The translations under genes were made by a program, and so were the position numbers. A stretch of 64,000 nucleotides of DNA, taken from positions 1 to 64,000 of the forward strand of contig JAJRRA010000028.1 in the NCBI GenBank assembly GCA_024279945.1. The letters run 5' to 3'. Positions within the stretch are counted from its first letter, which is position 1, and each line of letters begins with the position of its first letter. Below, piece after piece: positions 8,173 through 33,340 of this stretch. The DNA is from Gammaproteobacteria bacterium. Lineage in GTDB: Bacteria; Pseudomonadota; Gammaproteobacteria; Xanthomonadales; SZUA-36. The notes under the pieces are model-generated. The model worked only from the letters and a program-made list of their open reading frames with translations. It was not told the origin of the DNA and did not search any database.

Positions 8173-9087
8173 GTGAGCACGATAAATACCGGAATCTTCA
8201 CTGCCCCGAACGCCGGGGAATACCTGGAACGCGAACCCGACATGCAGGTGCAACAACTTGCGGGGCGACTTTGGACCGCTAGCGATGGGTTGCGGCGCAG
8301 CATTTTTCTGGAGGGCGATACCGGCGTCATTGCATTTGACACCTTCGGTACGCCGGGCGCCGCCCGCGCCTACGGCAAGGCGATCGCGCAAACCCTGCCT
8401 GAAAAACCCATCCACACCATTATCTACAGCCATGATCACCTGGACCATGCCGGTTTTTCCGATGACCTGGCACCGGATGCTGAGATCATCGCCGATGAAA
8501 TGTGCGCCAAAGTCATCAGTTTGCGCGGCGCCAAAGGTCAGTTGGAACCGACCCGACGTTTATCCGGTGCACATAATGAAATGGAGATTGACGGGGTCTC
8601 GTTCACTTTGCTCAATCCGGGGCCGACCCATGGCAGCGGTAATCTAAGCGCCTGGTTTGCCGAAGACAGGTTGCTGTTTTCCTCGGACACGATCCTGCCC
8701 AATGCCCGTTACGGGTTGATGCCGGATTATCATATCTGGAATTTCGTCCGCTTCATGCGCAGTTTCCTCGATCTGGACTGGGATACTTTTGTGCCGGGCC
8801 GCTATGAACTCACTGACCGCGCCCGCTTTGAGTTGGGCTGTGATTTCATAGAAGCAGTGCAGGAGGAATCACAAAAGGCCTTCGCTGAGTTCGTGCCGAT
8901 CTGGGTGCTTGATGCCATGCAGGGCTATGTCGGCGGCAAGCTCAAGGAGCGTTTCGGCTGCCTGGAAGGTTTCGACGAACACATTGGGTTAATAGCCGTT
9001 CGTATTGTGCACCATTACCTGATGGGAGGCTGGGGTCTGGAAGATACGCCCGAGCCGGGCGTAGTGCTGGCTGACGAGGTGGCATGA
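8173..9087 (+). CDS. MBL-fold hydrolase, paralogue of the preceding gene
   Basis: A 304-residue MBL protein clearly related to its upstream neighbour. It keeps H87-D-H89-L-D91-H92, GPTHGSGN and SDT, but the late VPGH histidine is replaced by Arg (VPGR), which should weaken the second metal site. I chose GTG at 8173 because GGGAGG lies just before it; the longer frame from 8122 would overlap the previous gene by 38 nt. It is probably in the same transcript as the upstream MBL gene. The substrate is unknown. Confidence 0.72.
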   Translation: MSTINTGIFTAPNAGEYLEREPDMQVQQLAGRLWTASDGLRRSIFLEGDTGVIAFDTFGTPGAARAYGKAIAQTLPEKPIHTIIYSHDHLDHAGFSDDLAPDAEIIADEMCAKVISLRGAKGQLEPTRRLSGAHNEMEIDGVSFTLLNPGPTHGSGNLSAWFAEDRLLFSSDTILPNARYGLMPDYHIWNFVRFMRSFLDLDWDTFVPGRYELTDRARFELGCDFIEAVQEESQKAFAEFVPIWVLDAMQGYVGGKLKERFGCLEGFDEHIGLIAVRIVHHYLMGGWGLEDTPEPGVVLADEVA

Positions 9088-17556: not shown

Positions 17557-18965
17557 TCTTTTCGATGATAGTGATCAGCAATCACCTGCGCCACGCAGGC
17601 GGTCAGCTTGCGCGCAAAGGGAATGTGCAGGAACTCGTTCGGTCCGTGTGCGTTGGAGTTGGGTCCCAGCACGCCGGTGATCATGAACTGGGCGCGGGGG
17701 AAGAAGTCGCCGAGCATGGCCATGAATGGAATGGTGCCGCCCTCACCCATGTACATCACGCTTTGTCCGTAGGCAGCCTGTGAGGCTGTTTCCAGTGAGG
17801 CATCCAGCCAGGGTGCGATGTCCGGTGCATTCCAGCCCGATGCGGCAGGATCTGCCTCGAAACTTACCTGGGCATTGTGCGGCGGATTCGCTTCGAGGGT
17901 TTGTTTGATGTTCACCGTGGCCTCATTTCCATCCACGGTTGGGGGCAGGCGCATCGACAGTTTCAGTGCGGTATACGGGCGCAGCACATTACCCGCTGAG
18001 GCAAGAGTCGGCATCCCTTCTGCTCCGGTAACAGACAGTGCCGGGCGCCAGGTCCGGTTGAGGATACGTTCCAGGTTATTGTCTGCCTGAGGCTCCACGC
18101 CCGCACAAAACGGATAGGCCTCAAAGACTCCATCGCCCAGAGCATCCGCCATGCGCTGACTTTGCGCCATACGCTGTTCGGAGATATCGGCGTAAAGGTA
18201 GTCCGGCAGGACACGACCGCTATTTTCATCCTCCAGGCGGCTGATCAACTGGCGCAGGATACGGAAGCTGGAGGGTACGATACCGGACGCATAACCGGAG
18301 TGGACGCCTTCTTCGAGAATATCGGCGCGCAGGGTGCCGGCGACTAGGCCACGCAGGGAGACGGTCAGCCAGAGCTGATCATAATTGCCTGCTCCCGAAT
18401 CCAGGCACACCACCAGCGAAGGAGTACCGATTCGGTCCCTGAGGTGATCGATGTAATAGGGCAGGTCATAGCTGCCGGACTCCTCACAGGCCTCGATGAT
18501 GACCACGCAGCGCGCATGTGGCATTTTCTCACGCTGCAGCGCCATGATTGCGGTGAGTGATCCATAGGCGGCGTAGCCGTCATCAGCGCCGCCACGGCCA
18601 TACAATTTGCTGTCCTTGATCACTGGTGTCCAGGGCCCCAGGTCATCCGCCCAGCCATTCATTTCAGGCTGCTTGTCGAGGTGACCGTAAAGCAGAATGG
18701 TGTCGTCATTGTCACCGGGGATATCCATAAAGATCAGCGGTGTCCGCCCCGGAAGGCGCACAATTTCATATTCCATCCCGGCGATGTCCTGGGCTTTGCA
18801 CCAGGCAAAAATCTGTTGGACAGCATCTTCCAGATAGCCATTTTTTTCCCAGTCCGGGTCAAAATGTGGGGATTTGGCCGGAATTTTGATGTACTCAATG
18901 AGTTCCGGAACGATGGAGTCCATCCAGACTTCATCAACAAATTTTTGCACTGATGGGTGGTTCAT
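17553..18965 (-). CDS. M20-family metallopeptidase
   Basis: A 470-residue M20 di- or carboxypeptidase-like enzyme. Metal and catalytic elements are YGHLDKQPE (His and Asp), GRGGADDGY (bridging Asp) and EACEESGS (catalytic Glu with metal ligand Glu), with a C-terminal GPNSNAHGPNEFLHI carrying the last His ligand. No signal peptide is seen, so it is cytoplasmic. It probably cleaves peptides or N-acyl amino acids; the POT transporter nearby would fit peptide use. A REP-like palindrome lies just upstream of its start. Confidence 0.88.
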   Translation of the reverse strand: MNHPSVQKFVDEVWMDSIVPELIEYIKIPAKSPHFDPDWEKNGYLEDAVQQIFAWCKAQDIAGMEYEIVRLPGRTPLIFMDIPGDNDDTILLYGHLDKQPEMNGWADDLGPWTPVIKDSKLYGRGGADDGYAAYGSLTAIMALQREKMPHARCVVIIEACEESGSYDLPYYIDHLRDRIGTPSLVVCLDSGAGNYDQLWLTVSLRGLVAGTLRADILEEGVHSGYASGIVPSSFRILRQLISRLEDENSGRVLPDYLYADISEQRMAQSQRMADALGDGVFEAYPFCAGVEPQADNNLERILNRTWRPALSVTGAEGMPTLASAGNVLRPYTALKLSMRLPPTVDGNEATVNIKQTLEANPPHNAQVSFEADPAASGWNAPDIAPWLDASLETASQAAYGQSVMYMGEGGTIPFMAMLGDFFPRAQFMITGVLGPNSNAHGPNEFLHIPFARKLTACVAQVIADHYHRKD

Positions 18966-19011
18966 GAGCCTGCCTTGAGTAGCAATCCTGAAGATTGCTT
19001 CAGATTATGGC

Positions 19012-19076
19012 ATGTAAGAGCCCGCTTGCGGGCGAAATAAATGCTCTCTGGATCGCCCGCAAGCGGGCTCTTACAT
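19012..19076. repeat. REP-like palindrome, copy 1
   Basis: Arms TGTAAGAGCCCGCTTG plus CGGGCGA at 19013-19035 and their exact reverse complement at 19053-19075 (24 bp each counting the outer A/T pair), with a 17-bp loop. Each arm itself contains the small palindrome CCCGCTTGCGGG. It lies between the start of the M20 gene and the end of the CNNM gene. Confidence 0.85.
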
Positions 19077-19077
19077 T

Positions 19078-20160
19078 TTATTCAGGGTCTTTGCTCTGTT
19101 CCTGGATAAGGCCGTGCTTGCGGGCGCGTTGTTGCCATTTTTCCCTTGCCAGTGCCTGCATGTCTACCGTGTGATCGGCTTCATCAATGATCTCGGTGCC
19201 GAGCAGGGTTTCAATCACATCTTCCATGGTTACAATGCCGGCCATGCCTCCAAATTCATCCACCACCAGCGCTATGTGTTCCCGTTTTTCAAGGAATAGT
19301 TTGAACAGGTCCGGCACCGGAAGGGATTCGTGGATGATGATGATCTCACGCCGGATGGATTTGAGTGGTTCATCGCCCTTGTCATGCAGCAGGCTGGTGT
19401 GCAGTTTGTCTTTGAGGAAATAGCCTGAGACGTCTTCCCGGGAGTCCCCTTCGTACAATGGAATGCGGGAAAAGGGCAGGTCCTTGTTGGCTTCATAGAA
19501 GTTCAGGATGGTCATTTCCTCCGATGCAAGCTTAACGACCGGTCGGGGTGGCATGATGTCTTTGGCCTGAACGGTATGCAGCAGCAACAGGTTTTCGATT
19601 ACATCGGACTGCTGCTGTTCTACGTGCCCTTCCTCCACACCAATTTCAGCCATGGCAAGAAACTCGGAACGGGAGAACACGCTTTGTGATTTGTCCTTTT
19701 TCAGGGCACGGGTGATGAACTGACCCAGCCAGACCAGGGGGTACAGCAGGAAAATCATAAGCTGCAGCGATCTGACCGTGAACGGAACAAGCTTTTGCCA
19801 CTGGTTGGCGCCGATGGTTTTGGGAATGATTTCCGACAGGATCAGTATGCCCAGGGTCATGGTCGCAGGCACTGCGACGGAAGTGACCAACGGGTTGGCT
19901 TCAGCCCAGATGTGTGCGCCCTGTGCGCCTACACCGATAGCGCCGACCGTGTGGGCGATTGTGTTCAGCGTCAGAATGGCTGCCAGCGGTCGGTCAATGT
20001 TTTCCTTGAAGGACTGGAGTCGCAGACCGATACGACCGCCTTCCTTGAGCTTTACCTGGGCATAGCTGGGCGTGATGCTCAGCAGTACGGCTTCCCAAAG
20101 GGAACAAAAGAAAGACGTAATAATGGAAATCAGGAAAAATGTAATAAGCAGGGTATACAT
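19078..20160 (-). CDS. CNNM/CorC-type transporter with CBS pair (hemolysin family)
   Basis: A 360-residue membrane protein beginning MYTLLITFFLISIITSFF. An N-terminal DUF21/CNNM transmembrane domain (about 1-180, with TLGILILSEIIPKTIG) is followed by CBS domains (HTVQAKDIMPPRP; HIALVVDEFGGMAGIVT). The family is linked to Mg2+ or other divalent-ion efflux. A longer frame starts at 20403, but the ATG at 20160 begins directly at the first membrane helix and is preferred. The usual C-terminal CorC_HlyC domain is absent, making it shorter than many homologues. Confidence 0.82.
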   Translation of the reverse strand: MYTLLITFFLISIITSFFCSLWEAVLLSITPSYAQVKLKEGGRIGLRLQSFKENIDRPLAAILTLNTIAHTVGAIGVGAQGAHIWAEANPLVTSVAVPATMTLGILILSEIIPKTIGANQWQKLVPFTVRSLQLMIFLLYPLVWLGQFITRALKKDKSQSVFSRSEFLAMAEIGVEEGHVEQQQSDVIENLLLLHTVQAKDIMPPRPVVKLASEEMTILNFYEANKDLPFSRIPLYEGDSREDVSGYFLKDKLHTSLLHDKGDEPLKSIRREIIIIHESLPVPDLFKLFLEKREHIALVVDEFGGMAGIVTMEDVIETLLGTEIIDEADHTVDMQALAREKWQQRARKHGLIQEQSKDPE

Positions 20161-20314
20161 AGTTTCTTCGCAGTAGGCGGACCAAATACTCCGCAAAATC
20201 TGATTATCGGGCCAACAAGCCAAGTGTCTGTTATGCTTGCGGCACTTCGTTTTCCGGTACATACCGGAAAGATCAAAATCAACAATCAACCATGATAAAC
20301 CTCGGAGGGAATCA

Positions 20315-21841
20315 GTGACTACCCAAACCGATATGGCGAATACCCCGGGCATCCCGCCGGGTGAGTTTCTCGGACACCCCAAGGCACTTTGGCAGCTTTC
20401 CAATATTGAGATGTGGGAACGCTTTTCCTATTACGGTATGCGTGCCGTGCTGGCGGTTTATGTCGCAACGACTTTTTTCAGTCACATGGGTACCAATGCC
20501 AACTCAGAAGCGAGTCTGGTCTATGGCGGCTACACGGCGCTGGTATATGCAACGGGCATCATTGGCGGCTATATCGCGGATCATGTGCTGGGCTATCAGC
20601 GATCCATTTTACTGGGCGCCATTATTATGGCCGCAGGCTTGTTCGTATTACTGATTGAGGATCTGAACTGGTTCCTGGTGGGTCTGGCGCTGATTGTAGC
20701 GGGCAACGGCCTGTTCAAGCCCAACATCTCAACCATGATCGGCAAGTTGTACACCCCCGGTGATATACGGCGGGACTCGGGTTTTACGATTTTCTACATG
20801 GGTATCAATCTGGGCGCCCTGATTGCTCCACTGATTACTTCTGCCTGGATCGGCGCGACCTGGGGTCTCAAGTATGGATTTCTGGCGGCCGGTATCGGCA
20901 TGATCCTGTCCACGCTGTTCCTGGAAGTAGCCAAGAAGTCCCTGGGCCACATCGGCCTTCCACAGGAAGACAAGGATGGCTGGGGCCGGTTTTTCGCCGT
21001 TGGCGCCGGGGCCATTGCGATGGCTGGAGTGGTCTTTTTCCTGCTGTCGGAAAGTACGATTCTGGGCTACCTGCTGATCGGCATCATGCTGGCGTTGATG
21101 GCCTATTTCATCATTGCCGGAATTCGTTCCGGTGATAAAGTGCAGTTGCAACGCTATATTGCGATGCTGATTCTGTTCGTGGCCAACGCCTGTTTCTGGG
21201 CTCTGTTTGAGCAGGCCGGCAGCTCGATGAATTTCTTTGCGCGTGAATTCGTCACGCCGATGTTCGGTAGCATGGAAACCTGGCAGTCGGGTGGTTTCGG
21301 TATTTTCCAGTCACTCAATCCGCTGTACATCCTGTTGTTTGCCCCCTTGTTCGCGGCACTGTGGCCATGGCTTGAAAAGCGCGGTCTCAATCCTTCCATA
21401 CCGAGAAAATTTGCACTGGGACTGATTCAGGTTGCACTGGGTTTCTATGTGCTGGTGTTCGCAATCAATAACTTCCAGAACGCTGCCGGACTGGTGCCCT
21501 GGATTCTCCTGGCCCTGGTTTACCTGTTGCATACCAGCGGTGAGTTATGCCTGTCCCCGATCGGTTTGTCCATGGTTACGAAACTGGCCGCTGAGAAAGA
21601 GACTGGCATGGCCATGGGTGGCTGGTTCCTCTCCATTGCAATGGCGCAGTATGTGGCAGGTCTGATTGCCGCAGTTGCATCCGGTGGTACAGGTGGGCAT
21701 GGAGCAATTCCTGCGACTGCCGCCCCCATCGGCCAGTACGCCGATACCTACATGATGCTGTTCTGGATTGGCCTCGGCTTCGGTGTTGCCTATCTGGTGG
21801 TTGCACCGCTGATCAATAAGTTGATGCATGGCGTGAAATAG
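20315..21841 (+). CDS. POT/PTR2-family di-/tripeptide transporter
   Basis: A 508-residue, roughly 14-helix proton-coupled peptide transporter of the inner membrane. The N-terminal ExxERFSYYG motif (EMWERFSYYGM) and GGYIADHVLGYQR, GNGLFKPNIST and FYMGINLGALIAP are diagnostic. The start is GTG at 20315, preceded by GGAGGG; the frame extends upstream to 20237 but lacks a ribosome binding site. With the M20 peptidase and the DUF885 protein it suggests peptide uptake and breakdown. Confidence 0.9.
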   Translation: MTTQTDMANTPGIPPGEFLGHPKALWQLSNIEMWERFSYYGMRAVLAVYVATTFFSHMGTNANSEASLVYGGYTALVYATGIIGGYIADHVLGYQRSILLGAIIMAAGLFVLLIEDLNWFLVGLALIVAGNGLFKPNISTMIGKLYTPGDIRRDSGFTIFYMGINLGALIAPLITSAWIGATWGLKYGFLAAGIGMILSTLFLEVAKKSLGHIGLPQEDKDGWGRFFAVGAGAIAMAGVVFFLLSESTILGYLLIGIMLALMAYFIIAGIRSGDKVQLQRYIAMLILFVANACFWALFEQAGSSMNFFAREFVTPMFGSMETWQSGGFGIFQSLNPLYILLFAPLFAALWPWLEKRGLNPSIPRKFALGLIQVALGFYVLVFAINNFQNAAGLVPWILLALVYLLHTSGELCLSPIGLSMVTKLAAEKETGMAMGGWFLSIAMAQYVAGLIAAVASGGTGGHGAIPATAAPIGQYADTYMMLFWIGLGFGVAYLVVAPLINKLMHGVK

Positions 21842-21844
21842 ACG

Positions 21845-21920
21845 TGTAAGAGCCCGCTTGCGGGCGAATGTGCATCGCGTCCTGAGGGCGGAAATTTTCG
21901 CCCCCAAGCGGGCTCTTACA
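21845..21920. repeat. REP-like palindrome, copy 2
   Basis: The left arm (21845-21867) is identical to that of copy 1; the right arm (21898-21920) differs by one base (CCCCCAAG for CCCGCAAG), and the loop is 30 bp. It starts 3 nt after the POT transporter stop and may protect the mRNA end or terminate transcription. Confidence 0.85.
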
Positions 21921-21948
21921 AAACCTTGGTTTTCTTCGGAGGTTTTTG

Positions 21949-23748
21949 ATGAAATTATCCGGTTGGGGCGTTCCGCCCGTACTGTTTGCTGTATTCCTGT
22001 TGCTGCTGGCTGGCTGCAGTCCATCCGAAGCCCCGGAGTCTGCGGCGCCGGCGGTTTTTCCTTCCAGTGAGCTTGCGCATACGGACCAGGAAAAGCCTGC
22101 CAATGAATGGACCCGCTTTGTCGACCGCTACATCGAAGATTATTTTGCCGCCCATCCGGCGTTTGCTGTGGTCCAGGGGCGGCATGAGTATGACGGTCAG
22201 TTACCGGACTGGAGTGCTGAAGGCCTCGCAGGCGAAATTGCCCGCCTGCACGAGGCCCGTGAGAATGCCCTGAGTTTCAGTGATGAAGACCTCGGCGATG
22301 AGGGTCGGTATCAGCGGGAATACCTGTTGGCGGCAGTCGACCGGGCTCTGTTCTGGCTCGAAAAGTCCGAGTGGCCGTTTGTAAACCCGGCGTATTATTT
22401 CGACTGGATGTCGGATTCGCTGGATCCCAGCCCGTATATCACGCTGGACTACGCACCGTTGGAAGAGCGCATCAAATCATACACTCGGTATGCCCGGAAT
22501 GTCCCCCGGGCTGCGCAACAGATCCGGGCCAACCTGCGCATGCCTATGGCGCGAACCCGCCTGGCGTACGGTATCGATTCCTTCGGTGGTTTTGCGGATT
22601 ATTTCAGCAAAGATGTGCCGCTTGTTTTCGCCGCTGTAGAGGATGCAGAACTGCAGGCAGAATTTGCCGGGGCAAACACGGCGGCTGCAACGGCAATGAC
22701 AGAACTGACCGACTGGTTGAAATCCAATCTAGCTACGGCGACCGAAGACTTTGCACTGGGGCCGGAACTGTTCAGCCGAATGATTTATGACACGGAACGT
22801 GTTGATAGCACTCTGGAAGAACTCGAGGCGGTCGGCCAGGCAGATATGAAACGCAACCAGCTTGCACTGGGCGAAGCCTGTGCGGAGTTTGCTCCCGGTG
22901 AGAGCATTCACAGTTGCTTCTCTCGAATGGCAGGGCGCAAGCCGCCAGGGGGAGCGGTGGAAACGGCCCGGCGGCAGCTTAATGAGCTCAAAGCTTTTGT
23001 ACTTGAAAATAAGCTGGTAACGATTCCCGGTAATGAAGAAGTCCTGGTCGCTGAGGCGCCACCCTATGCCCGCTCCAATTTTGCCTATATCAATATTCCC
23101 GGCGCATTCGAGAAAAACCAGCCCTCGACCTATTACATTTCACCGCCAAATCCCGCCTGGCCGGAAGAAGTTCAACAGGCTTATATCGCCGGGGAATCCG
23201 ATCTGCTGTTTACCTCGGTGCATGAAGTCTGGCCGGGGCATTTCCTCAATTTCACCCACGCCAACCGCGCGGACTGGGATTTTGGGCGCGTATTCGTGAC
23301 CTACGCTTTCGGTGAAGGCTGGGCGCACTACAGCGAAGAAATGATGCTGGAGGCTGGTTTGCGTGGAGCTTCACCGGAAACCCGTATCGGGCAACTATCC
23401 AATGCACTGCTGCGCAATGCCCGTTTCCTTTCAGCCATCGGGCTGCACGCCAGGGGCATGACGGTTGAAGAAGCAGAAAAGTTCTTCATGGAAGAGGCCT
23501 ACCAGGATCAGGGAACCGCGCAGCAGCAGGCGGCACGGGGTACTTATGATCCTGCCTACCTCAACTACACCCTCGGTAAACTGATGATCCGGCAACTGCG
23601 TGATGACTGGACAGCCGGGCGTGGTGGGCGTGCGGCCTGGCGAGAATTCCACGATACTTTCCTGTCCTTCGGCGGGCCGCCGATTCCCCTGGTTCGGGCG
23701 CGGATGATGCGGACTCAGCCGGCAGCGGTATTTTACAAGCCGGAGTAG
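21949..23748 (+). CDS. DUF885-family lipoprotein
   Basis: A 599-residue lipoprotein: signal with lipobox LAGC (Cys at about 23), so anchored in the envelope. The body is a DUF885 protein with the metallopeptidase-like SVHEVWPGHFLNFTHANR motif and FGEGWAHYSEEM, the pattern of zinc-peptidase-like HExxxGH proteins. The biochemical role is not established. ATG at 21949 is preferred over TTG at 21946, as GGAGG lies 6 nt upstream of the ATG. Confidence 0.85.
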   Translation: MKLSGWGVPPVLFAVFLLLLAGCSPSEAPESAAPAVFPSSELAHTDQEKPANEWTRFVDRYIEDYFAAHPAFAVVQGRHEYDGQLPDWSAEGLAGEIARLHEARENALSFSDEDLGDEGRYQREYLLAAVDRALFWLEKSEWPFVNPAYYFDWMSDSLDPSPYITLDYAPLEERIKSYTRYARNVPRAAQQIRANLRMPMARTRLAYGIDSFGGFADYFSKDVPLVFAAVEDAELQAEFAGANTAAATAMTELTDWLKSNLATATEDFALGPELFSRMIYDTERVDSTLEELEAVGQADMKRNQLALGEACAEFAPGESIHSCFSRMAGRKPPGGAVETARRQLNELKAFVLENKLVTIPGNEEVLVAEAPPYARSNFAYINIPGAFEKNQPSTYYISPPNPAWPEEVQQAYIAGESDLLFTSVHEVWPGHFLNFTHANRADWDFGRVFVTYAFGEGWAHYSEEMMLEAGLRGASPETRIGQLSNALLRNARFLSAIGLHARGMTVEEAEKFFMEEAYQDQGTAQQQAARGTYDPAYLNYTLGKLMIRQLRDDWTAGRGGRAAWREFHDTFLSFGGPPIPLVRARMMRTQPAAVFYKPE

Positions 23749-23767: not shown

Positions 23768-24271
23768 TTAAAGATCCATTGCCATGAAGCAATTGCAACT
23801 GCCGTGCCCGGTATTGCCCAGCGGCTTTTCGATGGGCTGAAATCCATGCTTGAGGTAAAGTTGTCTGGCCCGGGACATATTATCCATGGTCTCAAGATAG
23901 CAGTTTGTGTATCCGGCATCCCGGGCGGCCTTGAGCAGGATCGCCAGCAAGCGACTGCCGAGGCCGGAGCCGCGTAGTTCCTGCAGGAAATACATCTTGC
24001 GCAATTCACACACTCCTGGCTCGCCAGCGGTCAGGGGCGCAATTCCTCCACAGCCCTGCAAACGGTTATTATGTTCAATCACGTAGAAGGCGGAACCCGA
24101 AGTTGAATAGGCTTCGTACATTGAGTCGACTTCGCTGTCCTCAATGGAAAATCCGCATCCGACCGCGCCAAATTCGGTCATGACCTGCCGGATGATCTGC
24201 GCCACGGCCGGATTGTCTGCCGGGCGTATCAGCCGTATCCGGTCTTCCATGTGCTGTTCAGCTTGATTCAT
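23768..24271 (-). CDS. GNAT-family N-acetyltransferase
   Basis: A 167-residue GNAT enzyme. The acetyl-CoA motif is LRKMYFLQELRGSGLGSRLL (R-G-x-G-L-G) at about 90-110, followed by GYTNCYLETMDNMSRARQLY and KHGFQPIEKP. The substrate is unknown. The start overlaps by 14 nt the 3' end of the CaiB gene, so it is the last gene of the APC-CaiB-GNAT operon. Confidence 0.85.
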   Translation of the reverse strand: MNQAEQHMEDRIRLIRPADNPAVAQIIRQVMTEFGAVGCGFSIEDSEVDSMYEAYSTSGSAFYVIEHNNRLQGCGGIAPLTAGEPGVCELRKMYFLQELRGSGLGSRLLAILLKAARDAGYTNCYLETMDNMSRARQLYLKHGFQPIEKPLGNTGHGSCNCFMAMDL

Positions 24272-25325
24272 TAGTGCTGAAAGCGATTTGCTTCAAGCCG
24301 GGTAAACCATCGCTTTCCAGGACCATTCCTTTTGCCAGGCGGGTTTCAAATACGTCTTTCATATCGTTTACTGCACCTGCCGGAACGTGGCATTCATGGA
24401 GTCTAGCCATGAACTCATCCCGTTTCCAGGTTCTGATTTTGCTTCTCAGAATGGTCGTCAGTTCCTGGTTGTTAACCACGCGCTGCGGGTTCCGGCGAAA
24501 CTTCTCATTCTGTGCCAGTTCCACCATACCGAGCACATCACACAAGGCGGAGAATTGCCGGTCGGTTCCCACGGCGAGCACCAGCGGCTTTTCATCCTTG
24601 CTGAAAAAGACCGTGCCGTAAGGTGAGATATTCGGATGCCCGGAACCCAGGCGTTCAGGAATATGCCCTGCATAGAGCCAGTTGAGCGCCTGATTGGCCA
24701 GGGAAGCCACCGCCGATTCAAACAGGGAAACCTCGACCAGACTGCCTTTCCCGTTTTGTTCCCGGCGCAGCAGCGCCAGCAGCAAGCCTTCTTTCAACTG
24801 GTGTGCGGTGAGCACATCTATCAGCGCTACGGGCATCTTGGTCGGCAGGCTCTGGGGCTCACCATTCATGTACATAAAGCCTGATTCGGCTTGTATGATG
24901 GCATCGTAACCGGGACGTGCATTGTCTTTGCCGTAACCGGTAATGCTGCCGTAAATCAGCTTCGGGTTAATGGCGCTCAGCCGGGCGTAGTCGACCCTGA
25001 GTTTTTCTGCGTCACCTGGCTTGTAGCTGGTGATCAGCACATCAGCCTGTTTAACATGTTCCATCAATTGGGCGTAATCCGGTTCTTTCCTGATGTCCAG
25101 ATAGAGGTGCCGTTTACCCCAGTTTACCGACAGGAAGTACGCCGATTTATTCGATGTTTGATCTTCTCCGGGAAGTTTCCACGAACGTGTCACGTCCCCA
25201 TCGGTAGAGGGGTTTTCCACCTTGAGGACGGCGGCACCCAACTCCGCAAAAAATTGTCCGGCAGAGGGGCCGGCCAGTACCGAGGCAAGTTCAATCACTT
25301 TCAGTTTGTGCAGAATGCGGTCCAT
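24258..25325 (-). CDS. CaiB/BaiF-family (class III) CoA-transferase
   Basis: A 355-residue CoA-transferase. It begins with VIELASVLAGPSAGQFFAELGA and ENPSTDGDVTR, has NWGKRHLYLDIRKEPD, and holds SITGYG followed by GYDAIIQAESGFM, where the family's catalytic Asp lies. It moves CoA between acids, but the substrate is not evident. The stop of the APC permease lies 1 nt before its ATG, and the GNAT gene overlaps its end, so transport, activation and acetylation are likely linked. Confidence 0.87.
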   Translation of the reverse strand: MDRILHKLKVIELASVLAGPSAGQFFAELGAAVLKVENPSTDGDVTRSWKLPGEDQTSNKSAYFLSVNWGKRHLYLDIRKEPDYAQLMEHVKQADVLITSYKPGDAEKLRVDYARLSAINPKLIYGSITGYGKDNARPGYDAIIQAESGFMYMNGEPQSLPTKMPVALIDVLTAHQLKEGLLLALLRREQNGKGSLVEVSLFESAVASLANQALNWLYAGHIPERLGSGHPNISPYGTVFFSKDEKPLVLAVGTDRQFSALCDVLGMVELAQNEKFRRNPQRVVNNQELTTILRSKIRTWKRDEFMARLHECHVPAGAVNDMKDVFETRLAKGMVLESDGLPGLKQIAFSTNESS

Positions 25326-25326
25326 T

Positions 25327-26697
25327 TCAGCCTGCTCTCCTGGTTTCAGAATAACGGATCAGGATTTCCCCAATGGCGATCATCACCAGCGCGCCCAGGA
25401 TGACCGGGAACTGCAATCCTTCCCCCGGCGTATAGAGAAACAGCACGATGGAGAAGGTGAGCACCACGATGCAGACACAGGCCATAACGATGGCGAAAAA
25501 ATTTCCACCGGGTGCCCGGTATGGCCTGGGCACATCTGTGTCAAGGCGACGTGAGCGGATATAGGCCAGCAGCATGCCGATGTAGGGCAGCAGGAAGATT
25601 ACCGCGCTGAAGGCGAATAAAGCCCAGAACAGGTCCTCATTGGAGTTCGACAGGTAGCCATACAGTAAAAGAGTGATGGTGCCGAAGATACCCATCGCGA
25701 TGGCGGCGCCGTAGGGTGTTCCCAGGCGCTTGCTCTCCAGGCCGAACAGTCCGGGCAGTTCGCCTTCCTGCCCCGCTTCGGCTGCAGCACGATTGCAACC
25801 CAGCGCCCAGGTCACACCGTTGGAGAAGAAGGTATAGAGTGCGGCGATGCCGAGAATCAGGACGAAGATACAACCGTTTCCATCGTTTTCGAAAAACAGG
25901 GCCAGCGTATCGATCAGGCCTTCAACCAGGTCGATTTCGGTAGTTGGCAGGGCGGCGAGCACGGCAACCGTTGCTGCCGTGTACAGGACGATAATGATGA
26001 ATCCGGAAATGAAAATGGATCGCGGGACATCCCGTGCCGGGTCAATCATTTCGTCGCTGCTGGCGCTGATCAGTTCGAAACCAAGCATCCCATAAATGAT
26101 CGCCGGAATGAATTTTGCGCTTGAATTCCAATTCGGCGCCAGCGTCTCCAACGAGATTTCATTCGCCATGCCGTGATCCTGAACGTAAAGGATGGCGCCG
26201 GTGATGACGGCTATAAAAACCAGGATTTTGAACACCGCGCCCAGGTTCGGCACCCACTTGCCAACGTCCAGGGTTACTGCATTGAGCGCAACTGTTATCC
26301 ACAGCAGGGTGATACCGATGGCAATCTGCCCGTTCAGCGAAAGGCCGGGCAGAAGGAGTTGTTTTAATACGCCGGCAAACATGATGTAAATCGCCGGGAT
26401 CCAGACCGCTGTGTTGACCCAGTAACCCCAACTGATCCTGTAGCCCCAGCGCTGGCCGAAAGCATTCCGCACCCAGGCGTAAATACCGCCCTGTTCCGGG
26501 TAGGTGCAGCCCATTTCGGCACAGATCATTGCAAAGGGTACAAAGAAAATCAGCCCCAGAAACAACCACCAGAATATGCTTGACGCTCCGATGGAAGCGG
26601 CCGCAGCCAGTGTATCCAACAGGAGGATGGCGGAGACGGTAAACAGCACCATGTCCGTTCTTCCCAGCGTTTTACGGCGAACAATGGTTTGGTTCAT
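25327..26697 (-). CDS. APC-family amino acid/amine permease
   Basis: A 456-residue, 12-helix APC-superfamily transporter. The N-terminus has FTVSAILLLDTLAAAASIG, then FVPFAMICAEMGCTYPEQGG and IYAWVRNAFG; later come GFELISASSDEMIDPARDVP and YIRSRRLDTDVPRPYRAPGG near the C-terminus. Substrates of this type are amino acids or polyamines; which one cannot be told. It is the first gene of a minus-strand operon, divergent from the sulfotransferase gene; the spacer holds a TACCC...GGGTA palindrome. Confidence 0.85.
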   Translation of the reverse strand: MNQTIVRRKTLGRTDMVLFTVSAILLLDTLAAAASIGASSIFWWLFLGLIFFVPFAMICAEMGCTYPEQGGIYAWVRNAFGQRWGYRISWGYWVNTAVWIPAIYIMFAGVLKQLLLPGLSLNGQIAIGITLLWITVALNAVTLDVGKWVPNLGAVFKILVFIAVITGAILYVQDHGMANEISLETLAPNWNSSAKFIPAIIYGMLGFELISASSDEMIDPARDVPRSIFISGFIIIVLYTAATVAVLAALPTTEIDLVEGLIDTLALFFENDGNGCIFVLILGIAALYTFFSNGVTWALGCNRAAAEAGQEGELPGLFGLESKRLGTPYGAAIAMGIFGTITLLLYGYLSNSNEDLFWALFAFSAVIFLLPYIGMLLAYIRSRRLDTDVPRPYRAPGGNFFAIVMACVCIVVLTFSIVLFLYTPGEGLQFPVILGALVMIAIGEILIRYSETRRAG

Positions 26698-26885
26698 GAA
26701 TTGACCCGACTGTATTTTTTCAAAGGCTTTCCCGCCCTGCCCTGTTCCGCCAACAGTGTCCTTTCGGGTGACAAAATATCACGTTCGACAAATCCGTATC
26801 CAGGTCCACCCCGAATCGATACGGCTAAATGGTGCGGGAGTGCCGGCACCCCATCTATATTGACATCGTGGCATCATAATTGCCG

Positions 26886-26900
26886 TACCCCTAAAGGGTA
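26886..26900. promoter_or_regulatory. Candidate operator TACCC-N5-GGGTA, copy 1
   Basis: TACCCCTAAAGGGTA lies in the 280-bp spacer between the divergent APC permease operon and the sulfotransferase gene. A closely similar palindrome stands upstream of the TonB receptor gene at 28617. No binding protein is proven; the LuxR-type gene at 32462 is the nearest candidate. Confidence 0.5.
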
Positions 26901-26977
26901 GCTATGAAAAAACCACCGTGCGGTGTTTGGCCATCGGGGCTATCATGTTCATTCTTCGATGGCTGTTTATTCGGTAG

Positions 26978-28567
26978 ATGGTGTCCAGTACAGAAACCCA
27001 ACAGACTGAATTGCTCCAGGCGCTATTACAGCAGGGATTTCGATTGCTGTCTCAGGGGCGCATCAGGGAAGCGGCTGAATGTTGCAAGCGGGCGTTGGCG
27101 ATCAAGCCGGGTCTGGTGCAGGGACATTTCCTGATCGGTCTGGTTGCGCTCGAAGCAAAGGACCGCAAGACCGCGTTGCGGGCATTTGGCTCCGTCACCC
27201 GTCTGGACCGGGGGCATTCAGCAGCCTGGGCTCAGTTGGCGAAATTGTTTATGAGCGACGGTCAGGCGAACCGTGCCGACGCAGCGCTGGTCGAAGCGAT
27301 CAAGAACAATCCGGACGACCCCCTGGTGCAGGATCTGGTCGGTTCCGTCTATTCCATGATGGGGGAACACGGACTGGCCGGGAACTGGTTTGGGAAAGCG
27401 AACGCAGGGCGACCCGGTCACGTTCCCTTCATGCTCAACCGGGCAAACAACCTCGTTTACCACGGTGAAACGGCGAAAGCGCAGGCACTCCTGCACAAGA
27501 TCATTGTGCTTCAGCCGAATAGTCCCCAGGCGCACTGGTCGCTTGCCGGTACTCGCAGGGCACGGAATCACGCTCACATCGAACAGATGCGTGCGTTGGT
27601 GAAAAGTGCGGGGCAGCAGCCGCGAAGCCGGGCCTTTTATTACTATGGCATCGGCAAGGAACTGGAAGACTTGCAGCAATGGGACGAGGCATTCGATGCA
27701 TTCAGCCGAGGTGCCGCTGAGCGGCGGAAAACCGTCGAATACGATGAGGCGGCTGAAGTGGATCTGTTTCACTTTCTCAAGGAGAACTTTACGGCGGATT
27801 GGCTCAAGGAGGGCGATACAGGCCATGATTCATCGGCGCCGGTGTTTGTGCTGGGTCAGCCCAGAACCGGCACCACGCTGGTCGAGCGTATTATCAGCAG
27901 TCATTCACAAGTGGAATCAGCAGGCGAATTACAGCAGTTCGGCCTGGCGATCCGGCGCTTGAGCAACCACCAGGACCCACGGCGGTTCTCGTCCGGGTAT
28001 TTTGCGGCAGCGCTTGGTCTCGAATGCAGGAAAATGGGTGGTTTGTACCTGGAATCCACCCGCCGCATGAGAGGCGATGCTCCGAGGTTCGTGGACAAAT
28101 TGCCGCAAAACTACCTGCACATACCACTGATTCTCAAGGCGCTGCCAAACGCAAAAATTGTTCATTTGACCCGAAATCCGATGGATTCCTGTTTCGCCAG
28201 CTACAAGCAGTTGTTTGCCGATGCCTACCTGCATTCCTACGACCTGGAGGAAATGGCGCGACACCATTGCCGTTACCGGGATTTAATGGACCTTTGGCGG
28301 GAACGCTTTCCGGGACGTTTTTATGATATTTCCTATGAACAAACAGTTGCAGATCTGGAGGTCAACGCCCGGAAGCTGTTGCGTTTTCTCGAGTTGCCCT
28401 GGGAAGAGGCCTGTCTGCGCTTTTATGAGCAGGACAGTGCAGTTTCAACCGCCAGTGCAGCCCAGGTACGAGAACCGGTGCACACACGGTCCGTCGGCCG
28501 GTGGCGAAAATACGAAAGGCAGCTTGAACCGATGCTTGAAACGCTGAATCAGCACGGCCTGGCGTAG
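26978..28567 (+). CDS. TPR-repeat sulfotransferase-family protein
   Basis: A 529-residue two-part protein. The N-terminal half (about 1-260) is a run of tetratricopeptide-like helices (RIREAAECCKRALAIKPG, GLVALEAKDRKTALRAFG, AALVEAIKNNPDDPLVQD). The C-terminal half is a sulfotransferase fold with the PAPS-binding loop VLGQPRTGTTLVERI (about 288-302) and IVHLTRNPMDSCFASY as the 3'-phosphate element. The acceptor is unknown. ATG at 26978. It is alone between two palindrome-bearing spacers. Confidence 0.85.
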   Translation: MVSSTETQQTELLQALLQQGFRLLSQGRIREAAECCKRALAIKPGLVQGHFLIGLVALEAKDRKTALRAFGSVTRLDRGHSAAWAQLAKLFMSDGQANRADAALVEAIKNNPDDPLVQDLVGSVYSMMGEHGLAGNWFGKANAGRPGHVPFMLNRANNLVYHGETAKAQALLHKIIVLQPNSPQAHWSLAGTRRARNHAHIEQMRALVKSAGQQPRSRAFYYYGIGKELEDLQQWDEAFDAFSRGAAERRKTVEYDEAAEVDLFHFLKENFTADWLKEGDTGHDSSAPVFVLGQPRTGTTLVERIISSHSQVESAGELQQFGLAIRRLSNHQDPRRFSSGYFAAALGLECRKMGGLYLESTRRMRGDAPRFVDKLPQNYLHIPLILKALPNAKIVHLTRNPMDSCFASYKQLFADAYLHSYDLEEMARHHCRYRDLMDLWRERFPGRFYDISYEQTVADLEVNARKLLRFLELPWEEACLRFYEQDSAVSTASAAQVREPVHTRSVGRWRKYERQLEPMLETLNQHGLA

Positions 28568-28616
28568 GTCCAGTTATAAAATTCCGACCCCACTTTCCAT
28601 GTTTCTACGGTAGTTG

Positions 28617-28632
28617 TACCCCCTTGGGGGTA
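28617..28632. promoter_or_regulatory. Candidate operator TACCCCC-TT-GGGGGTA, copy 2
   Basis: A perfect palindrome with 7-bp arms and a 2-bp centre, 116 nt upstream of the TonB receptor start. It shares the TACCC...GGGTA ends with the site at 26886. A weak terminator for the preceding sulfotransferase gene is the alternative reading, but the T-tract is short (ATTTCC). Confidence 0.5.
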
Positions 28633-28747
28633 TTTCCGATCTGATGCAGATTCGCTATTTTTAACTGAACACTATATTTTTATTAAAAACCAATAGACTG
28701 GGATTTCACCCGGCAGAAATTCGACCTTTATTTTTCGGGGAAACAGC

Positions 28748-31114
28748 ATGGTACACAGACTACAAAGCAGGCATCTTCGTTTACTGAAACGCCGTCCGGT
28801 ATTCGTGGCCGTCAGTACAGCCATTTTGTCCATTACACTGGCTTCGCCGGCCGTTGCACAGGAACTCGAAGAAGTTATCGTTACCGCAACAAAACGGAGC
28901 GAATCCGTGCAGGATGTGCCCTTGGCGATCACGGCCCTGTCCGGTCACTTCACGGAATCAGTAAATCTCAATGATGTTAAAGACCTGATTTCTTTTACTC
29001 CGGGCATCACCGGAAACAGCCAGGACAGCTTTATCGACGCCGTTAGTGTCCGTGGTGTGCGAACCCAGGATTTCGGTGTCGGTGGCGATCCCTCTGCCGC
29101 AATTTTCAAGAACGATTTGTATGAAGGGCGAAACGGCGCGGCGGTTACCAGTCTTTACGATATTCAACGCTCGGAAGTTTTGCGCGGTCCCCAGGGTTTT
29201 CTGTTCGGGCGCAATGCCATTGGCGGTGCGATCAGTATTCATACCCGCAGGGCGGAGGTCGGGGACAAGGTGACCGGTTACTTTGATCTTGATCTGGCTG
29301 AACGGGGACATGTTGTCGCTGAGGGCGCCGTAAACATACCTGTTTCCGACATTTTTGCCATGCGTTTTGCCGTTTATTCTTCAAATGAAGACGGATTTGT
29401 GACCAATTTATATGACGGCCGGGATCTGATTGAGCACGATAAAAAGGCCATCCGCTGGTCGACGGCCCTTGAAGTCGATAAATGGTCGGTCTACACGCAG
29501 GTCGAATACGAGACACGCGAACAGTCCGGTTCGGTTTACCGGGCGGTTACTGAAGGTGACACCTGGGACACGCTGGGGGGTGTTTTTGGCGATGCCATCG
29601 TTCTGGGCGGCGGTCGCAGAGACGCAGATTCTGATCAATCCCTGGGTGATAACGATGACGCTGATATCCTGACCCTGGGCATGCGTATTGATTATGATCT
29701 CGATTGGGCGACATTGACCTCCAATACCGGCTACAAGGATCATGATTTCTTCTATACCGAGGATTATGATGGCACGCCGCTCAATATCAACAATTATCAA
29801 CAGGACCAGACCGGTAATTATTTCCAGCAGGAGCTGCGGCTGGTGTCGAACGGTGACGGACCGTTCTCATGGTACGCAGGTGTTTCCTATTACAAGGAAA
29901 ATATCGATACCGTGTTTAACTCGTCCGGACTGGAAGACGTTTTTTGTAACTATTACGGTAACTACTACTACCCCGGTAATGACATTTCAGACTGTGCCAG
30001 CCTGTATGCCTATTACGGCTCGCCCTGGTCACCGAGTCCCGATGGTTTGCTGACTGAGCCCGGCCGCGTGAGGGGGGAATTTAGCGGTTGGGCCGCCTAT
30101 GTCGATTTGAACTATCAGGTCACGGACAAACTGGATATTTCCCTGGGCGCCCGCTACACGGATGACAAGAAAGATTTCAACCTCAATGTGCCAATGCCCG
30201 AAAGCCAGCTCGCACCGTATTTTGCTTACGGCTTTACCACCGATGGCGATATCAAATCCTCAAAGAGTTGGTCGGATACACAGCTTCGTGCCGTTGGCCG
30301 ATACTGGATCAGTGATGACCACATGGTTTATGCGAGCTATACCGAGGGGTTCAAGTCCGGCGGTTTCGGCAGTTTTTCACTGGTTGACGCCAACGGCGAC
30401 CGGATCGGGTGCTGTACTACCGATGTGACTCAGTCCTCGGGCGCACGCTCAAAAAGTTTTGAACCGGAACAGGTGAAGTCTTACGAGTTCGGCTACAAGG
30501 CAACAGTTCTTGGCGGCACAACCAATCTTGATCTTGTTGGGTTCATTTATGATTACAAGGATCTCCAGATCAGCTTCTTCGATACCGATTTTGGTGCAAA
30601 CACGGTAGAAAATGTCGGCCAGGTCGATGGCAAAGGCATTGAGGCGTCGATCACAACCCAGTTCAATGACAACTGGGGTTTGTACCTGGCATTGAGTTGG
30701 CTCGATACCAAAACGATCGGTGTACAGCAGGTCTGTGATGGGGATACACCGGACAGTTGTGAAGGCAGAAAATTGTTCTGGGCTCCTGATTGGTCCGGCG
30801 CCGCTGTGTTACATGCCACTTATCCGGTGGGTAACGGTGCGATCAGCGGTAGCCTGGAGGCTTTCGGGGAGTCGAAGCGTGGTGGTGGTTGGGGTAACTG
30901 GCCGGAAACCATTATCGGCTCCTATGTGGAAATGGCCATTCGTCTTAATTACGAATCCAGTGGGAACTGGACAGCCGGCGTCTATGTGGAGAACCTGACG
31001 AACGAGTTTACTTATGACGGCCAGAACAATAACGGCGGGATTCTGCCGTCTCATTTTTTCGGACACAAGAGACCGCGAACTTTCGGTGCTCGGTTCCGTT
31101 ATGACTGGTTCTGA
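28748..31114 (+). CDS. TonB-dependent outer-membrane receptor
   Basis: A 788-residue receptor. The signal peptide ends near VAQE (about residue 38); the TonB-box-like EEVIVTATKRSESVQDVP is at about 40-57, followed by a plug domain with VRGVRTQDFGVGGDPS and VLRGPQGFLFGRNAIGGAI, then a 22-strand-type barrel ending in the aromatic YDWF. The ligand is not predictable; the neighbouring ligase and permease point to a small organic compound rather than iron. Its stop overlaps the start of the ligase gene. Confidence 0.9.
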   Translation: MVHRLQSRHLRLLKRRPVFVAVSTAILSITLASPAVAQELEEVIVTATKRSESVQDVPLAITALSGHFTESVNLNDVKDLISFTPGITGNSQDSFIDAVSVRGVRTQDFGVGGDPSAAIFKNDLYEGRNGAAVTSLYDIQRSEVLRGPQGFLFGRNAIGGAISIHTRRAEVGDKVTGYFDLDLAERGHVVAEGAVNIPVSDIFAMRFAVYSSNEDGFVTNLYDGRDLIEHDKKAIRWSTALEVDKWSVYTQVEYETREQSGSVYRAVTEGDTWDTLGGVFGDAIVLGGGRRDADSDQSLGDNDDADILTLGMRIDYDLDWATLTSNTGYKDHDFFYTEDYDGTPLNINNYQQDQTGNYFQQELRLVSNGDGPFSWYAGVSYYKENIDTVFNSSGLEDVFCNYYGNYYYPGNDISDCASLYAYYGSPWSPSPDGLLTEPGRVRGEFSGWAAYVDLNYQVTDKLDISLGARYTDDKKDFNLNVPMPESQLAPYFAYGFTTDGDIKSSKSWSDTQLRAVGRYWISDDHMVYASYTEGFKSGGFGSFSLVDANGDRIGCCTTDVTQSSGARSKSFEPEQVKSYEFGYKATVLGGTTNLDLVGFIYDYKDLQISFFDTDFGANTVENVGQVDGKGIEASITTQFNDNWGLYLALSWLDTKTIGVQQVCDGDTPDSCEGRKLFWAPDWSGAAVLHATYPVGNGAISGSLEAFGESKRGGGWGNWPETIIGSYVEMAIRLNYESSGNWTAGVYVENLTNEFTYDGQNNNGGILPSHFFGHKRPRTFGARFRYDWF

Positions 31115-32471
31115 AACCCCATCAGGGCAATGGCCGGAGCAACTGACCGAGTTGCTGGCTGCTTATCCTGATACGGAAATTTTTGAAGTACTGCTGTCGG
31201 ATATCAATGCCCGCTTGCGGGGAAAATGGGTCAGCCGTTCCAATATTGGAAAAGTGTTCAATGGGGGGCTGAAATTACCCCTGACGACCCTGAGCTTCGA
31301 TATATGGGGCAGGGATCCGCTGGGCTGGATGTTTGATGGCGGAGATGTAGACGGTATCTGTAATCCGGATGTGCGAACACTGGCGCCAGTGCCCTGGCTG
31401 GAACGCCCGACCGCGCAGGTTTTGTTGTCCCTGAACGATGTAGGGGGGCGCCCCTGCGAATACGATCCAAGATCGATCGTCCGACAACTGTCTGAGCGCT
31501 TCAGTCAGCATGGGCTGACCCCGGTTTTGGCCACCGAGCTGGAATTTTTTCTTTTCCGTAAAGAATGTGACGCCCGGGGCAGGCCGGTGCATTCGCAAAC
31601 GGGCCACGGCGGAGAGGACCTGATTGGTGGTCAAACCTACGGCATTGAAGCGATGCAGGATGTCTCTGAATTCATGCATGGCGTCCGCGATGCTTGCCAG
31701 GCACAGAATCTGCCGGTTGATACTTTGATTACCGAGGCCGCCGCTTCACAATACGAGATCAATCTGTATCATCAGCCGGATCCGCTGCTGGCAGCGGACC
31801 AGGGCTTGCTGTTGCAGCGGGCGATCAAAGGTGTTGCATCCCGGCACGGCATGCGTGCTTCGTTCATGGCCAAGCCGTTTGGCGATCAGGCTGGAAACGG
31901 CATGCATGTGCATTGCAGCTTGATCGATAAGGACAGCCGGAACACGTTTGCTAACGATACGGATGAAGGTAATGAGTTGTTGAGACAGGCCATTGCGGGC
32001 TGCCTGGCGACGATGTCCGACAGTATGTTGCTGTTTGCACCGCATCTGAACTCCTACCGCCGGCTTAGCCCGGAAAACCACGCACCAACGGCGCCGACCT
32101 GGGGCTACGACAATCGAACTGTCGCCATCCGGGTTCCGGCAGACAACCATAAAGCCATGCGTCTGGAACACCGTGTGGCCGGCGCGGACGCAAGCCCACA
32201 CCTGGTCATAGCCGCGATTATTGCCGGCATGCTCTATGGGATTGAGAACAAGTTGGAAGCGCCTGTACCGGTTGTCGGTGATGCGTACAAACAATTTAAG
32301 CCGCAGCTACCCGGCAGTTGGCCGGATGCGCTGGGTAAATTCAGCGGGTCAGCATTTATCCGTGACTATCTCGGGGCTGAATTTCAGCGTGTCTACACTG
32401 CTACCAAGCAACAGGAAATAGACGAATTCAACAAACACATTACGCCTCTGGAATACCAGTCCTACCTTTGA
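31101..32471 (+). CDS. Glutamine synthetase-family ligase (PuuA-like)
   Basis: A 456-residue GS-family enzyme that would join glutamate or a related acid to ammonia or an amine using ATP. Motifs: LATELEFFLF (metal Glu), GNGMHVHCSL (catalytic His region), ENHAPTAPTWGYDNRTVAIRVP and RLEHRVAGADASPHL. Overall it resembles gamma-glutamylpolyamine synthetases (PuuA) more than GlnA. The ATG at 31101 lies within the last codons of the TonB receptor gene, showing coupling. Its end overlaps the LuxR gene by 10 nt on the opposite strand. Confidence 0.82.
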   Translation: MTGSETPSGQWPEQLTELLAAYPDTEIFEVLLSDINARLRGKWVSRSNIGKVFNGGLKLPLTTLSFDIWGRDPLGWMFDGGDVDGICNPDVRTLAPVPWLERPTAQVLLSLNDVGGRPCEYDPRSIVRQLSERFSQHGLTPVLATELEFFLFRKECDARGRPVHSQTGHGGEDLIGGQTYGIEAMQDVSEFMHGVRDACQAQNLPVDTLITEAAASQYEINLYHQPDPLLAADQGLLLQRAIKGVASRHGMRASFMAKPFGDQAGNGMHVHCSLIDKDSRNTFANDTDEGNELLRQAIAGCLATMSDSMLLFAPHLNSYRRLSPENHAPTAPTWGYDNRTVAIRVPADNHKAMRLEHRVAGADASPHLVIAAIIAGMLYGIENKLEAPVPVVGDAYKQFKPQLPGSWPDALGKFSGSAFIRDYLGAEFQRVYTATKQQEIDEFNKHITPLEYQSYL

Positions 32472-33340
32472 TACACGGAACGTGTCGCCCTGATTGCCTT
32501 TGAATTCATCGCTTGAGCGGGTTTTTGCAAATAGGCGACCAGTGGGTCATTACCGCTGTAGCCATCGGCACTTTTCAATGAGTCAATAAACAGGTGGAAT
32601 AATTCTGATTGTGTGCTGATGTCGAGTTTTTTGTATGCATGCTTGCGGTGAAGTTTTACAGTTTCAGGCGATATTTCCAGCACTTCAGCCAGCTTTCTTG
32701 TGGTATGCCCGAGCAGAACCAGGTTAACGACCTGGCTTTCCCGCCGGGTTAAGACGCTGGTTCCAAAGCACTTCAGCGCGGATTCAAGTGTTCCCCGTAA
32801 GTTGGTTTTTGGTTGCTTGTCCTGTGATTTCTGTCGCCAGTGCATGCGGCAAAGCATCGTAACCAGCGGTTCAATATTCCGTAACAGTGTTATGTGAGAC
32901 CCTGAATATGCCCTGGAAACGGTTTTCCCAAGCGCGAGGTTGATAAATCCGCCGTCTTCGAGCGGAATCAGGTAACCGCATTCATCACGAAGTCCCGATT
33001 GCCGGTAATAGATACGGTAGTACTCACTGCGGCGAAAACCGCCAGGAGCCAATTCACGCAACGGGAAAAATCCACTCTTGCGCATTTCTGTTGCCGCCAC
33101 GTAATAAGGGTCCAGCAAAAAAGCGCCATTCAAAAAAACCTCAAGGTTCGGTTGGAAGCGCACGTGGGGGTCGGCAAAATCGATCACCGGCAGGTTGGCG
33201 GTGTGGTAGACAATGATCGTGGCCTCATCGACCGGAACAAGACCCCGGATGGCAGCGATCAGCCGCTTCGAAAAATCCAGACTGCCCAACTCGGCCAGGA
33301 GACTGGCGAGGAGCCGACTGTAAATCTTGATCGCTGACAT
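32462..33340 (-). CDS. LuxR-family transcriptional regulator
   Basis: A 292-residue regulator. The C-terminal LuxR helix-turn-helix (about 205-260) reads LTRRESQVVNLVLLG, HTTRKLAEVLEISPETV and KLHRKHAYKKL. The N-terminal 190 residues form an unrecognised sensor-like domain; I see no clear receiver or autoinducer motif. The gene ends against the GS-like gene and could control the permease, TonB and ligase block, whose promoters share a palindrome. Confidence 0.8.
   Translation of the reverse strand: MSAIKIYSRLLASLLAELGSLDFSKRLIAAIRGLVPVDEATIIVYHTANLPVIDFADPHVRFQPNLEVFLNGAFLLDPYYVAATEMRKSGFFPLRELAPGGFRRSEYYRIYYRQSGLRDECGYLIPLEDGGFINLALGKTVSRAYSGSHITLLRNIEPLVTMLCRMHWRQKSQDKQPKTNLRGTLESALKCFGTSVLTRRESQVVNLVLLGHTTRKLAEVLEISPETVKLHRKHAYKKLDISTQSELFHLFIDSLKSADGYSGNDPLVAYLQKPAQAMNSKAIRATRSVYQR

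Follow-up and report, generated by a model that had tools for sequence, protein, structure and literature searches.

Palindromes placed in front of transporter genes raise the question of whether a regulator reads them and, if so, which one. In the stretch of gammaproteobacterial DNA analysed here (the window, 64 kb in length), two palindromes with TACCC and GGGTA arms lie within an uptake gene cluster that also encodes a LuxR-type regulator. The two sites are probably operators of that regulator, a predicted local and ligand-responsive activator encoded at 32462-33340. The features that enter this reading are as follows.

24258-25325, minus strand: CoA-transferase family III (PF02515, 1.3e-90), directly behind the APC gene
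25327-26697, minus strand: APC-family amino acid permease (PF13520, 3.1e-52), putative target from site A
26886-26900, no strand assigned: site A, TACCCCTAAAGGGTA, 15 bp, proposed LuxR-type operator
26978-28567, plus strand: TPR-containing sulfotransferase (PF13469, 1.5e-48)
28617-28632, no strand assigned: site B, TACCCCCTTGGGGGTA, 16 bp, proposed LuxR-type operator
28748-31114, plus strand: TonB-dependent receptor (PF00593, 3e-30, and PF07715), putative target from site B
31014-32471 (ORF as listed), plus strand: glutamine-synthetase-like (PuuA-like) ligase (PF00120, 3.4e-96, and NCBIfam)
32462-33340, minus strand: LuxR-type regulator, 292 aa, VqsR-like ligand-binding domain and GerE helix-turn-helix

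The palindromes and their surroundings

Read directly, site A has the arms TACCCCT and AAGGGTA, with one mismatch and a 1-bp centre, and site B has a perfect 7-bp pair around a TT centre. Expressed as heptamers, site A combines TACCCCT and TACCCTT, and site B consists of inverted TACCCCC with a 2-bp centre, its last base being C where the pattern TACYYMT has T. These are the only two matches to TACCC-N3-8-GGGTA within the window, where 0.12 are expected, and two were reached in none of 100 shuffles. The original prediction that the sites are shared, near-identical palindromes is borne out in that both are real and commoner than chance in the window, but their spacing differs by 1 bp (15 against 16 bp; 14 to 17 at other loci). 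The exact form that it proposed, TACCCC-N2-3-GGGGTA, does not fit, as site A has only three G and site B reads TACCCC-N4-GGGGTA.

Site A lies between the divergent genes for the APC permease (start at 26697, minus strand) and the TPR-sulfotransferase (start at 26978, plus strand). Site B lies between the sulfotransferase and TonB receptor genes, 49 bp past the sulfotransferase stop and with its end 115 bp before the receptor start at 28748. The ligase gene has no palindrome of its own, and none stands in front of the window's own luxR gene. Comparison with a related locus, L062, places the true ligase start probably near 31101, overlapping the end of the TonB gene. The ligase scored 214.2 bits with the PuuA equivalog model (gamma-glutamylputrescine synthetase), below the cut-off of 650, and is PuuA-like only.

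Beside the cluster, at 17553-23748, the window also encodes a POT-family peptide transporter (PF00854), together with a peptidase of the M20 type and a further large ORF, both recognized by eye only. Their presence beside the cluster suggests that the region serves the scavenging of peptides or amino acids.

The LuxR-type regulator

The C terminus of the regulator carries a GerE helix-turn-helix (PF00196, 6.5e-13, residues 195-250), and its recognition helix TVKLHRKHAYKK aligns with TVKVHVKHMLKK of NarL, making the DNA-binding part NarL-like. For the N-terminal part, the match is to the VqsR ligand-binding domain (PDB 5xhx), at 3.8e-13 by sequence and at 3.3e-30 by profile. The same structure is the top fold match of a predicted model with a mean pLDDT of 75.8, built from three sequences (E 2.4e-8, target-normalised TM 0.78, 25% identity in the fold alignment). 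On both sequence and model, the N terminus is a predicted VqsR/LuxR ligand-binding fold, and the protein is probably ligand-responsive. The idea that the VqsR-like domain senses a substrate of the cluster is conjectural.

In a search for relatives of this protein among 151 genomes of near relatives, only the window genome itself gave a match at 1e-20, and across the order 6 of 398 genomes did so at 1e-8, the window genome included and the others weak. No relative was found in the viral contigs searched.

Orthologous TonB receptor loci

Close relatives of the TonB receptor are encoded at 12 loci, 10 from the genome collection and two from genomes related to that of the window. The sulfotransferase gene adjoins the receptor gene in 11 of these 12 orthologous loci, the exception being L070, a 4-kb contig. 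The TPR-sulfotransferase/TonB receptor pair (window 26978-31114; L062-L069 and L071-L073) is conserved with or without LuxR.

Within the stretches read, a LuxR relative accompanies the pair in L062 (63% identity) and in L069 from Microbulbifer donghaiensis (34%). L062 has the gene order of the window (sulfotransferase, TonB, ligase, LuxR), and its palindromes occupy the places of sites A and B, with TACCCCAATCGGGTA before the sulfotransferase gene and TAACCCTTTCGGGGTA before the TonB gene. In L069, TACCCCATTTGGGGA lies between the LuxR and TonB genes. The short contig L071 carries TACCCTAAAGGGTA at the place of site A, with an aminotransferase fragment on one side and the sulfotransferase gene on the other; on another contig of the same genome, the remainder of a TonB gene has a LuxR relative as its neighbour.

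The eight TonB loci without LuxR in the stretch read (L063-L068, L072, and L073) gave no TACCCC-N2-5-GGGGTA with up to one mismatch; permuted arms averaged 0.86 there, so that the zero count is weak alone. For seven of these loci, all but L067, the absence of LuxR refers to a search of the whole genome, and all of the genomes are drafts. Five of the seven searched genomes hold only a different LuxR clade, matching at 1e-50 to 1e-52, and two have no LuxR at 1e-20.

Loci of LuxR relatives

A profile built from three LuxR proteins, applied at a threshold of 1e-70 to 120 genomes of the M. donghaiensis family, recovered 16 loci in 15 genomes. The locus of L069 was excluded, and the remaining 15 loci, of 3 to 19 kb each and 264 kb in total, served as the motif sample. 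Most of them contain a TonB receptor gene (13/15), and many an aminotransferase (10/15) or an APC permease (9/15); the GS-like ligase is present in only seven and the sulfotransferase in one. Some of the TonB receptors are merely 24-25% identical to that of the window, and the aminotransferases of L062 and L108 are of the class III type by domain check.

The palindrome recurs in these loci well beyond its controls. TACCCC-N2-5-GGGGTA with up to one mismatch gave 14 matches in 10 of the 15 loci, where 29 permuted arms averaged 1.66 and never exceeded 6. With the shorter arms TACCC and GGGTA, again allowing one mismatch, 20 intergenic matches fell in 12 loci, against an average of 6.5 matches in 4.8 loci, and a maximum of 13 matches or 8 loci, for 19 permuted arms. 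An inverted-repeat scan covered all 6-bp repeats in the intergenic DNA up to 6 kb from LuxR, 23.4 kb in all; L108, L110, and L112 are near-copies, and two were dropped to leave 13 loci. TACCCC ranked first (8/13 loci), and the best arm that was not a shift of it reached 4/13. Without the intergenic filter, TACCCC did not stand out: it tied for first near LuxR and fell outside the top 12 over whole loci.

Several loci carry weaker versions of the site. Only degenerate sites were found in L111, L114, and L119, and a single site with two mismatches in its 6-bp arms in L109; the proteins of L109, L111, and L114 are among the nearest to the window LuxR by identity after that of L062. In both L114 and L117, the region between the divergent aminotransferase and TonB genes carries a pair of partly degenerate sites, spaced about 60 bp from each other. 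When 35 LuxR proteins were placed in a tree by a quick method, the rows with sites clustered, with 4 changes and none of 500 shuffles as low; they do not form one clade, and the tree has several long branches.

More distant LuxR loci, with the window's own locus excluded, served as a test once the motif was fixed. These seven loci, from six genomes of other families, gave no match with 6-bp arms (permuted average 0.48), and the operator claim is therefore limited to the nearer LuxR relatives. With 5-bp arms and one mismatch, four intergenic look-alikes appeared in the same seven loci; one of these, TACCCCGCAAATGGTA in L135, follows a LuxR gene immediately.

Among fourteen loci of other LuxR homologues there were two matches, one of them from L020/L023, where a palindrome lies beside two LuxR-like genes. 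This locus was considered as support and set aside, as the match to the window LuxR covers the GerE domain only. The palindrome in L023, a locus from another family, lies at 8351-8366 (TACCCCAAATGGGGTA) between a LuxR-like gene and a gene for a leucine-rich-repeat-like protein, named by eye.

Promoter layout

Hexamers resembling a -10 element tend to recur at a similar distance from the palindromes. Across 27 site-directions, their peak lies 30-36 bp downstream of the palindrome centre, and 7 of 5,000 permutations were as good. None of 5,000 was as good for the 22 directions that remain without those facing LuxR, or for the 11 TonB-facing directions, whose peak lies at 28-34 bp. Many TonB-facing sites are related sequences, so these permutation tests overstate independence. 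The sample omits the near-copies L110/L112, the site in L071, all degenerate sites in L111, L114, and L119, the second of the two L117 sites, and directions with no clear target gene; target labels were taken from gene order, and those of aminotransferases were confirmed afterwards. It replaced an earlier test on 15 hand-picked promoters, which had included neither the sulfotransferase side of site A nor any L062 site. A uniform spacing of about 51 bp between site and -10 element was considered and abandoned once further loci gave 30-36 bp. Examples of the hexamers are TATGAT at 30, TAGGAT at 33, and TAGTAT at 34. The candidates in the window are as follows.

26854-26859, minus strand: -10-like TATAGA (weak), toward APC, 36.5 bp from the site A centre
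26941-26946, plus strand: -10-like TATCAT, toward the sulfotransferase, 50.5 bp from the site A centre
28656-28661, plus strand: -10-like TATTTT, 34 bp from the site B centre

Each has a counterpart in L062: CATAAT at 36.5, toward an aminotransferase, for TATAGA; TATCAT at 51.5 for the sulfotransferase-facing hexamer of site A, which at 50.5 bp is outside the 30-36 range; and TAGTTT (weak) at 34 for TATTTT. Site B has an alternative -10-like hexamer, TATATT, at 51. If a -10 element is centred at about -9.5, a spacing of 30-36.5 bp places the palindrome at roughly -40 to -46, where it overlaps the -35 region. NarL at the ogt promoter is positioned at -44.5, according to an excerpt of PMC7419079, and this likeness in placement makes activation by LuxR likelier than repression.

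Proposed mechanism

The LuxR relatives often have these palindromes beside similar genes, and for this reason sites A and B are most likely landing sites of the LuxR-type protein. A dimer of GerE domains would recognize the inverted TACCCC half-sites much as NarL does on a 7-2-7 site, and the VqsR-like domain at the N terminus would respond to a small molecule, probably an amine or amino acid that serves the cluster as a substrate. From site B, the protein would switch on the TonB receptor gene, with the PuuA-like ligase transcribed by read-through; from site A, it would do the same for the APC/CoA-transferase operon and perhaps also for the sulfotransferase gene. Binding, activation rather than repression, the operons, and the ligand are all predicted elements of this scheme.

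The suggestion in the original prediction that the nearby LuxR protein reads both sites gains support from the recurrence of palindromes beside similar genes in the loci of LuxR relatives, from the eight orthologous TonB loci in which LuxR was not seen, none of which carries the palindrome, and from the activator-like distance to the -10 hexamers. The uptake regulon that it envisaged, joining permease, CoA-transferase, receptor, and ligase, stands as one local cluster but not as a set of scattered targets.

Distribution of the motif across whole genomes

The window genome (3.92 Mb in 91 contigs, estimated completeness 96.98) contains the loose pattern at 22 places, compared with 26 for a reversed control, and thus shows no excess. 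The expectation that a genome-wide scan would place sites before TonB, APC, and GS-like genes failed on these counts. Likewise, exact TACCCC-N3-5-GGGGTA occurs at 10 places in the 16 genomes that hold this LuxR type, against 19 for the control. A genome-wide regulon was therefore rejected, and since the counts do not top the control, the palindromes, if meaningful, act locally. An order-wide scan found a match in 91 of 398 genomes, a raw figure with no total against a control.

Six of the 22 places in the window genome are copies of a single sequence, TACCCAATGTCGGGTA, on contigs C8, C32, C38, C56, C77, and C79. The copies read (L001, L008, and L010) have near-identical flanks, and three copies lie less than 100 bp from a contig end. 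This sequence is a dispersed repeat and perhaps the end of an insertion element. In another genome, G266, TACCCC-N1-6-GGGGTA occurs 10 times over several contigs, against none for the control, and among the matches listed (five) all read TACCCC(T/A)GGGGTA.

Alternative explanations

Recognition of the same sites by another protein has to be weighed, above all by a response regulator of the NarL/NarP type, or another one with a GerE domain, whose gene lies elsewhere and which responds to nitrate or another signal. Sites A and B resemble the TACYYMT 7-2-7 pattern of NarL, five NarL-like response regulators are encoded in the window genome at E <= 1e-20, and in another genome an exact TACCCCCAAAGGGGTA (G429:C1:780227-780242) is followed after about 70 bp by a NarL gene. 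NarL itself, however, exceeds its curated cut-off in only three of nine genomes tested; it was not found in the window genome, where the best score is 169.9 bits against a cut-off of 250, nor above the cut-off in the site-bearing genomes G398, G460, G501, G523, and G423. The palindromes moreover track the LuxR gene from locus to locus, and this explanation is considered unlikely. Metal-repressor boxes of the CsoR type also look alike, as in TATACCCnnnnnGGGTATA and ATACCCCnnnGGGGTAT from PMC5057107, and about 150 bp separate an exact TACCCCTAGGGGGTA at G398:C51:50624-50638 from a CsoR-family gene. That sites A and B are such boxes is scarcely credible, given that no CsoR/RcnR-family match (PF02583) was obtained in the window genome, at the completeness given above, or in seven of eight others tested, and that the domain-checked neighbours are not metal genes.

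The sites might instead owe nothing to a regulator. Site B, with its position 49 bp past the sulfotransferase stop and its ability to fold as a 7-bp hairpin, could be the intrinsic terminator of the sulfotransferase message, with site A as a chance look-alike. A terminator at 28617 had been named as one outcome that would undo the original prediction, and the evidence does not support it: TTTCCG follows the palindrome, with just three T and no T-run, the site is absent from the five sites of a terminator scan, and its folding is ordinary (z -1.21, with 25 of 200 shuffles as good). The motif is also found between genes that diverge, a setting that calls for no terminator, and termination is a very improbable account of the pair. 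Chance alone, with no regulator at all, would agree with the genome-wide counts, both of which fall below their controls (22 against 26 and 10 against 19), but it leaves unexplained the same placement in L062 and, for site A, in L071, the association with LuxR relatives, and the -10 spacing; it too is rated very improbable. Operators of the LuxR-type protein at 32462-33340 thus remain the preferred reading of sites A and B.

Relation to known systems

NarL/NarP of Escherichia coli offers the nearest likeness in DNA recognition. The NarL consensus heptamer is given as TACYYMT in an excerpt of PMC4886647, and an engineered NarL site, TACCCCTAAAGGGGTA, in an excerpt of PMC4549865 differs from site A by one additional G. 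Site B has heptamers of the TACCCC type inverted around a 2-bp centre, the GerE-domain recognition helices are much alike, and NarL activates from -44.5 (excerpts of PMC7419079, PMC4549865, and PMC4886647). Unlike NarL, the putative regulator has no receiver domain and carries a VqsR-like ligand-binding domain, the centre of site A is 1 bp, and the targets here are uptake genes. With VqsR of Pseudomonas aeruginosa, a quorum-sensing and virulence regulator according to the title of a reference in PMC4211393, the protein shares its N-terminal domain by sequence and fold (5xhx); it differs in the placement of its gene in an uptake cluster and is only 25% identical in the fold alignment. The CsoR boxes, in the excerpt cited above, share the TACCC...GGGTA palindrome, whereas CsoR repressors form a family of their own, unrelated to LuxR, to which the window genome gave no match.

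The exact sites beside a NarL gene in G429 and a CsoR-family gene in G398 indicate that the motif is probably common to at least two other regulator types. This suggests one code, TACCCC...GGGGTA, common to NarL, CsoR, and this LuxR group, and serves as a warning for motif-only annotation. For a group of LuxR-type regulators, the analysis predicts an operator and its target genes and describes a promoter layout of the activator-like kind, along with a hint that regulators of this group serve nutrient uptake rather than quorum sensing. Among the papers listed by a literature search, with most subscription journals outside its scope, none dealt with this operator and this LuxR type together. A broader and speculative proposal, to which only limited credence is given, is that a family of VqsR-like LuxR activators not encountered in that literature search, sensing a substrate and not a quorum signal, governs TonB-dependent uptake and gamma-glutamyl/aminotransferase breakdown of a nitrogen compound in gammaproteobacteria, using the operator code of NarL; in the genomes with both regulators, G399, G414, and G429, nitrate control may be cross-wired with this uptake system.

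The combination of a PuuA-like ligase and an APC permease is shared with puu-type polyamine catabolism. The cluster departs from that pathway in a ligase far under the equivalog cut-off and in the addition of a TonB receptor and a LuxR regulator. A further likeness is seen in L120 and L121, where genes for an FAD-dependent oxidase-like protein and an aldehyde or semialdehyde dehydrogenase are present.
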